Source: Nitrospirota bacterium (GTDB lineage: Bacteria; Nitrospirota; Nitrospiria; Nitrospirales; Nitrospiraceae). From it: a DNA stretch of 13,447 bases. Position numbers and translations under genes: made by a program. Location: the NCBI GenBank assembly GCA_004296865.1, contig SCVQ01000119.1, positions 1 through 13,447 of the forward strand, in the 5' to 3' direction. The notes beneath the pieces were generated by a model that made no database searches, had not been told where the DNA came from, and was given only the letters and a program-made list of their open reading frames with translations. Every line of letters begins with the position of its first letter. The stretch's first letter is position 1. Shown here in pieces: positions 1,313 through 5,820 of this stretch.

Positions 1313-1318
1313 TCACGC
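1287..1318. repeat. GTGAAGC-family repeat cluster at the end of the DUF420 gene
   Basis: On the plus strand this holds three near-copies of TTCACGC (at 1291, 1305 and 1312), one of them preceded by a degenerate ATGACGG. The DUF420 stop codon (1313-1315) lies inside it: on the minus strand the text is GCG-TGA-AGCGTGAA. The same stop-spanning word occurs at the ends of cheW and cheA. Confidence 0.75.
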
Positions 1319-1777
1319 CACCGAATACCAGACAAACAACAGTAAATAGACCAGATAGGCCGTGGCCATCGTGCCGGAAAACGTCCAGACGAGGAGCTTG
1401 CCGAGCCGCCGGTGCAGGGTCATCCCGGAGGACATGGCGCCGAGGCTCCCATACCGCAGCCTGGTCAACCCCTGGTAGAGGTTGTAGCCGCCCAGTCCGA
1501 TGGTCGTGGCCGCCAGGCTCGTGTGAATCAAGAGGATCGGCACGTAGATCCGCCAGTACTGCTCCGCCGTGCCCCCGAACTGGTCCCGCCCGAACAGGAC
1601 CTGTTTCGTGACATAGGCCACCAGCCAGATCCCCACGATCGTGCCGGCTCGCACCATGAGGCGCGCATGGGCGGAGACTTCGTGGTGCCGCGCGGACCTG
1701 GCGCCGGCCATGGCTACCAGATAGGCCGCGGTGATGCTGGACAACACGCCGTACCAGGCAAGAGTTTTCAGGTCCAT
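1313..1777 (-). CDS. DUF420 family integral membrane protein
   Basis: This 154-residue protein has four predicted membrane helices at about residues 7-24, 42-59, 77-101 and 127-149. The pattern fits DUF420 (YozB-like): HARLM at 37-41, an FGG motif at 67-69, R..Y before helix 3, an IH pair in helix 3 (H85) and LHRRLGK before helix 4 (H122). Histidines 37, 85 and 122 are candidate metal or heme ligands. Members of this family often lie near cytochrome oxidase genes and are thought to help respiratory assembly, but the biochemical role is unsettled. The start is set by a near-perfect AGGAGGT five bases before the ATG. The gene follows the globin/MCP chimera by 87 bases, with a strong hairpin just before its ribosome site. 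It is an unexpected member of a chemotaxis cluster; a link to redox or energy taxis is only inferred. The stop codon is supplied by an intergenic repeat. Confidence 0.82.
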   Translation of the reverse strand: MDLKTLAWYGVLSSITAAYLVAMAGARSARHHEVSAHARLMVRAGTIVGIWLVAYVTKQVLFGRDQFGGTAEQYWRIYVPILLIHTSLAATTIGLGGYNLYQGLTRLRYGSLGAMSSGMTLHRRLGKLLVWTFSGTMATAYLVYLLLFVWYSVA

Positions 1778-1797
1778 GATCGACCTCCTCGAGGGAG

Positions 1798-1832
1798 CCG
1801 CCCGTCCTCCCCGTAAGGGAGAGGACGGGCGG
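1798..1832 (-). terminator. Strong GC-rich hairpin before the DUF420 ribosome site
   Basis: CCGCCCGTCCTC-CCC pairs with GGG-a-GAGGACGGGCGG across a GTAA loop, giving about 15 base pairs with a single bulge. It lies between the chimera stop codon and the DUF420 AGGAGGT. There is no T-tract, so it may be a transcript stabiliser, an attenuator or a REP-like repeat rather than an intrinsic terminator. Confidence 0.5.
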
Positions 1833-1840
1833 GCCGGGTA

Positions 1841-1858
1841 CGTGGGAGGGGACCCACG
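1841..1858. repeat. Small inverted repeat after the globin/MCP chimera
   Basis: CGTGGG-agggga-CCCACG forms a perfect 6-base-pair stem with a 6-base loop, only 7 bases from the end of the chimeric ORF. It is next to the larger hairpin at 1798-1832. No T-tract follows. Confidence 0.4.
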
Positions 1859-1864
1859 CGCCGA

Positions 1865-2299
1865 TTAAAATTCCTCGAACTCGTTCGCGTCGCCGCGATG
1901 TCCGTTGCCCTCATGTTTGCCGACCCCTGCTCCGACCTTGATCGGCGCAGCAGACGCCGTCCGCCGTTGCGCCGCTTGAGGATGCTGGCCGGGAGCCGGA
2001 GGACCGGGCCTCTTCGCAACCGTGACCTCGGCCTTCGCCACCGGGATTTCTTCAGCCTGCTCCTCGATGGCCGTCATCTCGGCCACCTTCCCGTCCTTCA
2101 TCTTGAAAGACTCCATCAGGCGCTTGAGCCGTTGGGATTGTCCCACGAGGCCCTGGCAGGCCGAAGCCGATTGCTCGACCAGCGGCTTGACCGCCGGGTA
2201 CTTCTGAAACAGCCGCTCGTAGAACCGGGCGACCAGCTTGTCCCCCTGCGGAGCCACCAGCTTGAAACTGCTCTCTAAGAGGTCCACGTTGAGGCCCAT
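1865..2299 (-). CDS. Chimeric ORF: globin N-terminus joined to chemoreceptor C-terminus
   Basis: This ORF encodes 144 residues from an ATG preceded by AAAGGAG at 8 bases. Residues 1-39 read like the first helices of a bacterial single-domain globin: SSFKLVAPQGDKLVARFYERL, then FQKYPAVKP. At about residue 40 (base 2180) the text changes to that of a chemoreceptor C-terminus: LVEQSASACQGLVGQSQRL, a short helix ending LMESFKM, a Pro/Ala-rich flexible tail (about 95-135), and a final EFEEF. EFEEF fits the x-[HFYW]-x-x-[HFYW] tether that binds CheR and CheB in some receptors. The globin E and F helices with the heme-ligand histidine are absent, as are the receptor membrane, HAMP and tip regions. 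The other frames after the junction show no continuing globin, so this is a fusion and not a simple frameshift. It may be a deletion remnant or a small tether protein. Known parts: both families. Inferred: its origin and whether it functions. Confidence 0.7.
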   Translation of the reverse strand: MGLNVDLLESSFKLVAPQGDKLVARFYERLFQKYPAVKPLVEQSASACQGLVGQSQRLKRLMESFKMKDGKVAEMTAIEEQAEEIPVAKAEVTVAKRPGPPAPGQHPQAAQRRTASAAPIKVGAGVGKHEGNGHRGDANEFEEF

Positions 2300-2319: not shown

Positions 2320-2380
2320 CGTATCTCGTATCTCGTCGTTCGTGAAGCGTTAGAAAGAGACTCTTCTCTTCACGCTTTAC
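2320..2380. repeat. GTGAAGC/GAGATACG repeat element between cheW and the chimera
   Basis: From 2320 to 2350 this matches bases 2974-3004 at 30 of 31 positions (CGTATCTCGTATCTC, one variable base, then TCGTTCGTGAAGCGT). CGTGAAG at 2341-2347 pairs with CTTCACG at 2368-2374, and inside that loop AAGAG-a-CTCTT can form a second stem, so the RNA of either strand would fold. The cheW stop codon TAA (2377-2379) lies at the edge of the element, in GCG-TAA-AGCGTGAA on the minus strand. Confidence 0.75.
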
Positions 2381-2910
2381 GCGGCGGCGGGCTGGCTCGC
2401 CGCGGCTTCCGTTTGCGCAATTTCATCCATCGACAACACCCGGTCGATATCCAACAGCGTGATGAGCTTGTCGCCGGATTTCGCGATGCTCTGGATAAAG
2501 CTGGTGTCCACCCTGGTCCCGAAGTTCGGAGCCGGCTGGATCTCCTTCGCGGCGATGTCGAGAACATCCGAGACGGCGTCCACGACGATCCCCATCACGC
2601 GGTCCCGCACGACGACGACGACGATGACGGTGAACATGGTCGTGTCCACCTTCGCCATCCCGAACTTGGCGCGCAGATCCACGATCGGCACGATCGCCCC
2701 ACGCAGGTTCAAGACCCCCTTGATAAAGTCCGGCGTATTGGGAATCCGGGTGACCGCCGTATAGCCCTTGATCTCCTGCACCCGCAGGATGTCTACCCCG
2801 TAGTGTTCTTCGCCGAGGATGAACGTCAGGTACTGGCTCCCATCCGATGCCAGTCCGATCCGTTGATCCGATGCCGATGCTGTTGCCGTCATGTCCAGTG
2901 CCGTCGCCAT
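2377..2910 (-). CDS. cheW: Chemotaxis coupling protein CheW
   Basis: CheW is the cytoplasmic adaptor that links CheA to chemoreceptors. The chosen start gives 177 residues: the ATG at 2910 has GGAGG five bases upstream. A longer in-frame ORF to 2970 exists, but its extra 20 codons fall in the intergenic repeat and lack a ribosome site. Visible family features are YLTFILGEEHYGVDILRVQE, RIPNTPDFIKGVLNLRG and VPIVDLRAKFG, followed by MGIVVDAVSDVL and a C-terminal strand and helix ending in LLDIDRVL. The tail is Ala-rich. The third conserved strand reads VIVVVVVRDRV, encoded partly by a run of GTC codons (2611-2628 on the plus strand). It seems one residue longer than usual in CheW, which may reflect triplet slippage. 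It lies between cheA and the globin/MCP chimera, as expected for an array-forming operon. The stop codon sits in an intergenic repeat. Confidence 0.95.
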   Translation of the reverse strand: MATALDMTATASASDQRIGLASDGSQYLTFILGEEHYGVDILRVQEIKGYTAVTRIPNTPDFIKGVLNLRGAIVPIVDLRAKFGMAKVDTTMFTVIVVVVVRDRVMGIVVDAVSDVLDIAAKEIQPAPNFGTRVDTSFIQSIAKSGDKLITLLDIDRVLSMDEIAQTEAAASQPAAA

Positions 2911-2946
2911 CGCCGCCTCCTTCTTTAAATGCCGTCGCTCGTTATT

Positions 2947-3040
2947 CGTGACGCGTATCTCATCGCTCAAAAACGTATCTCGTATCTCATCGTTCGTGAA
3001 GCGTCGTGAGTGGGGAGCTGTCTTTCTTCACGCTTCACGC
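2947..3040. repeat. Longest GTGAAGC/GAGATACG repeat element, between cheA and cheW
   Basis: It holds three copies of CGTATCTC, and CGTGAAGCG (2995-3003) pairs perfectly with CGCTTCACG (3031-3039) over 27 bases. It includes the cheA stop codon at 3035-3037, read on the minus strand as GCG-TGA-AGCGTGAAG. The part at 2974-3004 is a 30/31 copy of 2320-2350. It also generates the spurious upstream extension of the cheW frame. Confidence 0.78.
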
Positions 3041-5287
3041 CGCCATCGCGGCGCCATTCCGTGCCAGCTCGATCAGCCCCCGGACGTCCAGGATGAAGCC
3101 CACTGCCCCGTCGCCCAGAATCGTCGCCCCCGCCAGGCCCTCCACTTTCTGGAAGTTTTTCTCCAGGCTCTTGATGACCACCTGTTGTTGGCCCAACAAT
3201 TCGTCCACCATCACTGCTACCCGCTCGCCTTCGGTCTCCAGAATCACCAGAATGGCCTGGGCCGGATCGGTGGCATCCGCCTTCACGCCGAAGGCCTCGG
3301 CCAGACGCACCACCGTGTGGTAGGTCCCGCGCACGTTGACCACTTCTCCCTTCCCCACGACGGTTTTGACGGAGGTCTCCTGGGGTTGGATGGATTCGAC
3401 CACCGAGAGGAGCGGCACGATGTACGTTTCGAGCCCGACGCGCACGGTCAAGCCGTCGATGATCGCCAGGGTCAGCGGCAGCTTAAGCGTGAAGGTGGTG
3501 CCCTTGCCGGCCTCGGTCTTGATGCTGACGGTGCCGCCCAGCTCTTCGATGTTCCGTTTCACCACGTCCATGCCGACGCCTCGGCCGGACACATCCGTGA
3601 CCTTCTCGGCGGTGGAGAACCCCGGCCGGAAGATCAGCGGCCAGATTTGCTCGTCCGGCAGCTTGTCCGCCTCGGTGACGAGACCCTGGGCGATCGCCTT
3701 GGCCAGGATCTTCTCGCGATTCAAGCCTCGCCCATCGTCCGCCACGGTGATGCAGATATTGCCGCCTTCGTGGAACGCGTTGAGCGTGATCGTGCCCAGT
3801 TCCGGCTTGCCGGCCGCTACACGCTCGTCGGGAAGCTCGAGCCCGTGGTCCGCCGAATTTCTGACCAGGTGCGTCAACGGATCGCCGATGGATTCGATGA
3901 CGGTCTTGTCCAACTCCGTGTCCTCGCCGGACAGGACCAGGTGGATCTGCTTCCCGTTCTTGGCCGACAGGTCCCGGACCAGGCGCGGGAAGCGGTTGAA
4001 GGCGGTGCCGATGGGCATCATCCGGACGGCCATCACCCGCTCCTGAATCTCCCGCGTGTTCCGCTCGAGCTCGGCGAGGCGCTCCTGCAACACCGGCAGT
4101 TTGTCCGCCGAGAATCGCGTCCCCAGGTCGCTCAGCATGGACTGCGTGATCACCAACTCGCCGACCAGGTTGATCAGCTTGTCGATCTTGTCGGTGTCCA
4201 CGCGGATGGTCGTGGCCGCGGCCGCGGCCTTTTGGGCTTGCGCGGCCTGGCCCAGCTTCTGCTGTTTCTCGAGCGCCTGGGTAATTTGCTGGGGCGTGGC
4301 GACCTGCTGCTCGACCAGAATCTCGCCCAGCCGCTTTTGCTGCGAGAGCGCCTGGGCGAGCGCATCGGACGACACCACCCCTTCTTCCACGAGGATCTGG
4401 CCGAGCGGCTTCTGCGCGCCATCGCCGCCCATGACGGGTGACGGGTTCTTCGAGGCCCGGCGAAAGTGTTCGCTTGTCACGCTTAACGCGTCACGGTCTT
4501 CCGTGATCGTCAGGTCGCTGGTGTCCCGCACGAACTCGAAAACGTCTTCGATCTCTTCCCGCGGATGGTCGGTCTCGAGCGTGAAGGTCCAGGACCGAGC
4601 GCAGCGGTTGGCGTCCAGCTCCTCAAGGGACGGCATATGATCAAGATCCACCCCCTTCGCGGTGAGCGCGCCGAGTCTTCGGAGTTCACGCACGATCCGG
4701 CTCGGATCGATCCCCCGCTGAAAGACCGCCGGATCAGGCGCCCAGTGAATCGTGTATCTTGTGACGCATGGCTCGTCTGCTGCGTCACGCATCACGCACA
4801 ACGCGGCACCCTCCGGAGACGTTTCACGCGTCACGTGAGGCGCTTCACGCGCCGGAGACGCGTCACACGCCACGCTCGGCGCGCTCGCGGCCGCCGCACT
4901 GCCGCTGCAACGGGCCTGCAGGCGTGCGCGCAACGGCCCCACCGTGGCCTCATCCGGCGCCGCATCCGTCCGCGCCGCTTCCAACAGCCCCTTCACCCCA
5001 TCGGTGGCCTCCAGCAACAGATCGATCAACGGCTTGTCGGCTTCCATCTGGCCGTTGCGCAGGGCATCGAGAATGTTCTCCATCTTGTGGGTGAACTCGC
5101 CGACCGCCGCAAACCCGAACATGCCGGCATTGCCTTTGATGGAATGGGCGGCACGGAAGATCCGGTTGAGCAGGTCGAGGTCGCCCGGCTGCTGTTCGAG
5201 CCGCAGCAACCCCTCTTCCATGGTCGCGATATGTTCCGCGCTCTCCTCGAAGAACGCGCCCTGAAACTTCGATAGATCGATGCTCAT
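3035..5287 (-). CDS. cheA: Chemotaxis histidine kinase CheA
   Basis: CheA autophosphorylates under receptor control and passes phosphate to CheY (and to CheB, if present). The 750 residues start at an ATG with GAGGGA upstream. Domains in order: P1 Hpt at about 1-108, with the phosphorylated histidine H48 in AAHSIKGNAG; a linker (109-175); a P2-like regulator-binding domain at about 176-264; a second linker; two tandem 25-residue repeats at 295-319 and 320-344 (LGQILVEEGVV..., LGEILVEQQVA...) like those at the N-terminus of GspE/MshE-type ATPases; P3 dimerisation at about 360-428; P4 ATPase with the N-box HLVRNSADHGLE (473-484), DDGRG, GFSTAEKVTDVSGRGVGMD and GKGTTF; and a P5 CheW-like domain from about 605. 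All catalytic motifs are intact. Both linkers contain repeats of the same family as the intergenic ones. It is 88 bases downstream of cheY. Confidence 0.97.
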   Translation of the reverse strand: MSIDLSKFQGAFFEESAEHIATMEEGLLRLEQQPGDLDLLNRIFRAAHSIKGNAGMFGFAAVGEFTHKMENILDALRNGQMEADKPLIDLLLEATDGVKGLLEAARTDAAPDEATVGPLRARLQARCSGSAAAASAPSVACDASPAREAPHVTRETSPEGAALCVMRDAADEPCVTRYTIHWAPDPAVFQRGIDPSRIVRELRRLGALTAKGVDLDHMPSLEELDANRCARSWTFTLETDHPREEIEDVFEFVRDTSDLTITEDRDALSVTSEHFRRASKNPSPVMGGDGAQKPLGQILVEEGVVSSDALAQALSQQKRLGEILVEQQVATPQQITQALEKQQKLGQAAQAQKAAAAATTIRVDTDKIDKLINLVGELVITQSMLSDLGTRFSADKLPVLQERLAELERNTREIQERVMAVRMMPIGTAFNRFPRLVRDLSAKNGKQIHLVLSGEDTELDKTVIESIGDPLTHLVRNSADHGLELPDERVAAGKPELGTITLNAFHEGGNICITVADDGRGLNREKILAKAIAQGLVTEADKLPDEQIWPLIFRPGFSTAEKVTDVSGRGVGMDVVKRNIEELGGTVSIKTEAGKGTTFTLKLPLTLAIIDGLTVRVGLETYIVPLLSVVESIQPQETSVKTVVGKGEVVNVRGTYHTVVRLAEAFGVKADATDPAQAILVILETEGERVAVMVDELLGQQQVVIKSLEKNFQKVEGLAGATILGDGAVGFILDVRGLIELARNGAAMAA
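4476..4495. repeat. GTGAAGC-family repeat inside the cheA second linker
   Basis: GTCACGCTTAACGCGTCACG on the plus strand is a degenerate copy of the intergenic word. It encodes residues around DALSVTSE between the P2-like domain and the tandem 25-residue repeats of CheA, a place where a flexible insertion should be tolerated. Confidence 0.5.
4751..4875. repeat. GTGAAGC-family repeat array inside the cheA first linker
   Basis: About 125 bases are dense in TCACGC-type words: TGCGTCACGCATCACGCA (4781-4798), TTTCACGCGTCACGTGAGGC and CTTCACGCG (4824-4852), and GACGCGTCACACGCCACG (4857-4874). GTGACGCA (4761-4768) and TGCGTCAC (4781-4788) form an 8-base inverted repeat. The array encodes roughly residues 139-180 of CheA, a low-complexity linker (HVTRETS, CVMRDA, CVTRYT) between P1 and the P2-like domain. 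The words match those in the gaps beside cheW, cheA and cheY. Confidence 0.65.
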
Positions 5288-5769: not shown

Positions 5770-5820
5770 CGAAGCGTCTCTCGTCGGGCGCTTCACGCTT
5801 CACGAGATACGCGTGACGCG
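5770..5820. repeat. GTGAAGC/GAGATACG repeat element upstream of cheY
   Basis: GCTTCACG, CGAGATACG and GCGTGACGCG occur in a row. GAAGCG (5771-5776) pairs with CGCTTC (5789-5794). Compared with the elements next to cheW and cheA the words are in inverted order, so the family is found in both orientations. It sits directly after the stop of the MCP/CheZ-like gene and before the cheY ribosome site. Confidence 0.65.

Follow-up and report, generated by a model that had tools for sequence, protein, structure and literature searches.

A small open reading frame (ORF) between cheW and a DUF420 gene raises the question of whether a protein that begins like a globin and ends like a chemoreceptor is a new kind of protein or the remains of an old one. 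The window, meaning the whole stretch of 13,447 nucleotides that was analysed, contains no N, and the ORF on its minus strand (Table 1) starts with ATG and is open to its stop over 144 codons. The sequence AAAGGAG is present 7 bases 5' of the ATG, confirming the good ribosome site and open frame described in the first-pass annotation, and is found 8 bases ahead of the same start in G055, a genome of the same family whose protein is annotated Nitrospira sp. A scan for promoters and terminators found no promoters and eight terminator-like sites, against 5.4 expected. None of the matches listed in a literature search of titles and abstracts describes this locus. The ORF is probably a recent deletion relic of one globin/Aer2-type receptor gene, not a protein of a new kind.

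Table 1. Features of the window at and around the 144-residue ORF.
Feature	Position	Strand	Basis
4HB chemoreceptor gene, second receptor slot, cut by the contig end	3..1145	-	Pfam 4HB_MCP_1, HAMP, MCPsignal (positions 2-56 of 172)
DUF420 membrane-protein gene, downstream neighbour	1313..1777	-	Pfam DUF420, 3.9e-23
Probable internally deleted globin-coupled MCP gene, 144-aa ORF	1865..2299	-	Ends match one 784-aa gene of G055, in the same place, and one 793-aa protein, P0031
Tail: end of receptor last helix, linker, EFEEF pentapeptide, stop	1865..2179	-	77% identical to P0031 over 104 residues
Join, with 5-base microhomology CGCTG	2180..2184	-	Codon comparison with G055
Head: codons 1-40, first globin helices	2180..2299	-	40/40 identical to P0031, 90% to G055
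cheW, upstream neighbour	2377..2970	-	Pfam CheW, 6.6e-38
cheA	3035..5287	-	Pfam Hpt, H-kinase_dim, HATPase_c, CheW

The two ends of the ORF are each recognisable. Residues 1–40 are matched at 70–100% by 22 of the 25 listed proteins (the other three are listed without a head match), and most of the short matches to the 144-residue protein carry the Pfam globin domain PF00042. The earlier reading of residues 1–39 as the opening of a bacterial globin agrees with this, since residues 1–40 match the starts of globin-domain proteins. It had also been proposed that the text from about residue 40 is a receptor C-terminus ending in EFEEF, and residues 41–144 do match receptor C-termini; residues 39–144 correspond to the end of the G055 receptor (E 2.4e-28, 59%). 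The EFEEF fits the CheR/CheB-binding pentapeptide, which is defined as xZxxZ in an excerpt from PMC7390727. Such a pentapeptide ends 118 of the 120 collected proteins of more than 700 residues, by a pattern that also allowed H. In Pfam searches of the 144-residue protein (E up to 1, and E up to 0.1 in a second run) neither a globin nor the MCPsignal domain PF00015 was matched, because both domains are truncated. A weak match to Phycobilisome (E 0.18) was taken as chance.

Both ends of the ORF map, far apart, onto a single 784-residue ORF in G055 that has Pfam matches to Globin, PAS, MCPsignal and, weakly, HAMP. The gene order there is that of the window: MCP-like gene, cheY, cheA, cheW, receptor and DUF420. 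The nearest intact relative, P0031, is likewise the best relative of both the head and the tail. In a joint mapping of the window with 27 relative loci, 11 of the 27 have a globin-MCP gene with cheW and DUF420 as its immediate neighbours. Two pairs among these 11 are identical (L104/L114 and L036/L116), leaving nine distinct contigs, which include the complete Nitrospira defluvii chromosome FP929003.1 with its 772-residue gene. The sample is not random, because many loci were fetched for matching the head; nine further loci (L095, L097, L098, L100, L103, L105, L107, L109 and L117) were mapped separately, outside the count of 27. Two loci (L115 and L118) have cheW, globin-MCP and cheR without DUF420, and a non-globin receptor adjoins cheW in six (L099, L101, L102, L106, L108 and L110). 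Head and tail thus descend from one globin-coupled MCP gene in the same operon slot, and the alignment with relatives that the first-pass annotation had called for has found the intact globin-PAS-MCP gene between cheW and DUF420. In genome G007 (L031 and L032) three separate cheW/globin-MCP pairs occur within about 70 kb, away from DUF420.

The first-pass annotation had placed the join near 2180 at a shared leucine codon, and it is located at Leu40, within 2180–2184. If G055 is taken to represent the ancestor, the sequence is AAG CCG CTG TTC on the head side and GCG GCG CTG GTC on the tail side, and the window reads AAG CCG CTG GTC. The loss is of 1926 bases relative to G055, in frame, and of 649 residues relative to P0031. 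Among breakpoint pairs drawn at random from the same gene, 0.57% have microhomology of at least 5 bases, and among in-frame pairs 0.91%. Inside the lost part, together with the Aer2-like PAS region and the signalling domain, lies residue 81 of P0031, a histidine that aligns with the presumed heme-ligand position. Of the globin domain of a working globin-coupled MCP only residues 1–40 remain, without that histidine, and the PF00015 signalling domain is absent. The loss of the later globin helices needed for heme, and of the receptor tip, was therefore correctly recognised in the first-pass annotation. Parts that are essential for function are gone here and intact in the relatives, as in a relic.

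The ancestor would have been a globin-PAS-MCP receptor of an operon of the form cheY-cheA-cheW-[receptor 1]-DUF420-[receptor 2]-cheR-cheB and, judging from its domains, was probably an oxygen sensor. A deletion of about 1.93–1.95 kb between two copies of CGCTG would have joined codon 40 of the globin in frame to the codon for leucine in the conserved NAALVEE motif, as far as the relatives represent the ancestral gene. The product is predicted to keep two helices and a disordered EFEEF tail. Any 144-residue protein that is made lacks the histidine that ligates heme, the PAS sensors and the receptor tip in contact with CheA and CheW, and should therefore be unable to sense oxygen or to signal. 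The operon would then rely on the 4HB receptor in the second slot.

The in-frame loss with its 5-base microhomology, and other stages of loss at the same slot in genomes G020 and G012, count in favour of the relic. Against it counts that the locus is known from one draft assembly. The contig may be a misjoin, made at conserved spots either within a single intact gene or between sequences of two closely related species, or it may rest on a chimeric read, and the true gene may then be intact. Such an artefact, or a minority variant, is unlikely. The assembly comprises 613 contigs, and of the three MCPsignal matches in the genome, two run into a contig end within the signalling tip (C606, position 3 of 13447; C554, position 6197 of 6199). 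The related G009 assembly breaks exactly at MGLN, after cheW. There is no second copy of the locus for the species in the protein collection, where the window's DUF420 is matched at 100% once and next at 84%. Microhomology favours chimeric molecules as well as deletions, and short pieces of the missing middle may have dropped out of the assembly. However, a 5-base overlap is far below the length at which assemblers join sequences, the join is in frame and without N, and the two sides of it are similar in base composition and in distance to G055. Genuine loss at the same slot in G020 and G012 also argues against an artefact. The possibility that the missing middle lies on a different contig of this genome was rejected; beyond paralogous receptor domains, the search of the genome gave only weak matches, of E 0.003 or worse.

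The age of the deletion was considered from the tail. Relative-rate counts of the window against P0031, with five outgroups, are 8–5, 7–5, 6–4, 7–4 and 5–2; none is significant, and the window is always the higher. The dN/dS of the tail to G055 is 0.32, compared with 0.37 for the intact pair G055–G027 and 0.18, 0.21 and 0.15 for three other intact pairs. Fourteen positions do not vary among 11 intact tails. The tail in the window departs from them at two: Glu43, next to the join, has become Gln, and another position has disappeared at the join itself; when compared with the seven nearest tails, an Ala to Ser change is also found. With no clear acceleration in the tail, the deletion appears to be young when set against the divergence from the relatives. 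An unaccelerated tail fits a young deletion, and it fits an intact gene that has been misassembled equally well. The third-position GC content (GC3) of the tail is 0.73 and that of the head 0.90, while the 4HB-MCP, DUF420, cheW, cheA, cheY and MCP-like genes are at 0.81–0.88. In six other receptors the GC3 of the tail is also below that of the rest of the gene, by 0.02–0.14.

The relatedness of DUF420 does not track that of the receptor, which is a further point against the relic. The best relatives of the window's DUF420 are at 81–84%, whereas P0151, the DUF420 protein probably from the contig of P0031, is at 77%; P0031 and P0151 are each on a contig of 16,809 bases, probably the same one. 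The receptor and DUF420 therefore have different nearest relatives, the closest DUF420 matches lying elsewhere than on the contig of P0031. This difference in nearest relatives (window 1313–2299 against P0031, P0025 and G055) hints at an exchange of the receptor in this slot, or at a chimeric contig.

The first-pass annotation had left a choice between a relic and a small protein that offers a tether, and the former is much the better supported. As a working protein, the ORF would encode a soluble hairpin of two helices extended by a long, flexible tail, the EFEEF of which would bind CheR/CheB and act as a decoy or delivery tether. Such a model is very improbable, even though the frame is open, the ribosome site is conserved, the pentapeptide is intact and the dN/dS of the tail is 0.32. 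The predicted structure has two helices (residues 5–33 and 37–65) with the remainder disordered, which would suit a tether, but its mean pLDDT is 61 and its pTM 0.27. A young relic would look identical. Without a signalling tip the protein would have no evident route into the array, and the genome has a single CheR-like match, on another contig, which shares 32% identity with the G055 CheR of operon type; the cheR gene of the operon itself presumably lies beyond the contig end. The sequence is also unique: a database of about 5.8 billion contains the 144-residue protein as one sequence on one contig, and the receptor tail stands at the end of none of the 22 other matches. A widely conserved 144-residue family, which the first-pass annotation had named as evidence against its reading, is therefore rejected. 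Were the model nevertheless correct, a free tether born by deletion in one step could sequester or deliver putative CheR/CheB partners and so tune adaptation in the receptors that remain, a gutted receptor having been turned into a regulator; this too is very improbable.

Single-domain globins with a similar start exist (P0016, 137 residues), but the proposal of two originally separate neighbours, a globin gene and a receptor gene, fused by a deletion is rejected as extremely improbable, since each of the 11 relative loci at which a globin-type gene lies between cheW and DUF420 reads as a single uninterrupted globin-MCP frame and the head and tail share P0031 as their best relative. The deletion in that proposal stands; the fusion does not, this being one gene with its middle missing, and the intact ancestor would not have had a globin gene and a full MCP, the relatives having a single continuous globin-PAS-MCP gene. 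A frame that is open, starts well and has identifiable sequence at both ends can thus be the relic of a single gene and not a new fusion.

The relic gene belongs with other reduced forms of the same slot. Of 99 genomes searched with the ORF, its own included, 21 gave any match at E 0.01. Neither the ORF nor DUF420 is matched in G001 and G002, the genomes of the same genus, which therefore offer no sister locus for comparison. In the gap between cheW and DUF420 of G020 a frame ends in LKAGAFVGAHAGNGNGSGSKDGFEEF, which shares 25 of its 26 residues with P0033, an intact globin receptor (tblastn 6e-15, 31/44 overall). This remnant resembles P0033 more than it does the tail in the window, which points to independent losses in G020 and the window. 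In G012 there are about 70 bases between cheW and DUF420, and no receptor remnant. The closest cheA relative (80%) is in G009, where the contig that breaks after cheW and a second one, with a receptor tail, a DUF420 trace (E 1.2e-4) and a 4HB receptor, would appear to belong together. The trace, at 735–1290 of G009 L092, is a decayed DUF420 (residues 52–78, tblastn 1.2e-4) between two receptor genes.

A 4HB (four-helix-bundle) receptor follows DUF420 in the window, G012 and G020, whereas in the maps of the nine intact contigs DUF420 is followed directly by cheR. This Nitrospira group therefore contains a series consisting of the intact gene (nine contigs), the gene gutted in frame (the window), about 26 codons (G020) and nothing (G012), with a second receptor present in the operon in all three reduced cases. 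The value of the relic is modest, as a snapshot of receptor loss; whether these lineages gave up heme-based aerotaxis is now testable.

The intact relatives can be compared with known systems. Nitrospira globin-coupled MCPs (the gene of FP929003.1, and P0093, named by its source as N. lenta) share with the window ORF the locus, the globin start and the tail ending in a pentapeptide; the ORF differs in lacking some 640–650 middle residues, comprising the rest of the globin, PAS, a HAMP-like part and the signalling domain. In HemAT-type globin-coupled sensors, as described in an excerpt from PMC13401364, a globin is fused to an MCP signalling domain, and the intact relatives share this fusion. 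The difference lies in the globin, that of G055 scoring for Pfam Globin PF00042 (2.1e-18), with Protoglobin PF11563 just under the cut-off (24.3 of 25 bits). Among solved structures, the nearest globins are of the hemoglobin-like flavoprotein, flavohemoglobin and Vitreoscilla types. The PAS of intact P0031 matches the solved PAS of Aer2-type heme-PAS receptors (4hi4, 2.6e-22; 3vol, 7.2e-35), but no PAS domain is left in the window ORF. Two other Nitrospira-type globin receptor starts, P0012 and P0009, have unrelated-looking ends, on contigs of 32,532 and 132,352 bases, which are read as frameshifts in the gene or in the assemblies.

The intergenic regions contain small repeats. A 27-base repeat, CGTATCTCGTATCTCRTCGTTCGTGAA, is present before the relic (2320–2346) and before cheW (2974–3000), and with up to three mismatches it is found in just these two places in the genome. 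Shorter look-alikes are at 1305, 2926–2968 and 3027. A 20-base stretch in the cheA linker (4831–4850) resembles intergenic sequence at 5779–5798 (85%); small intergenic repeats may have entered the cheA linker.
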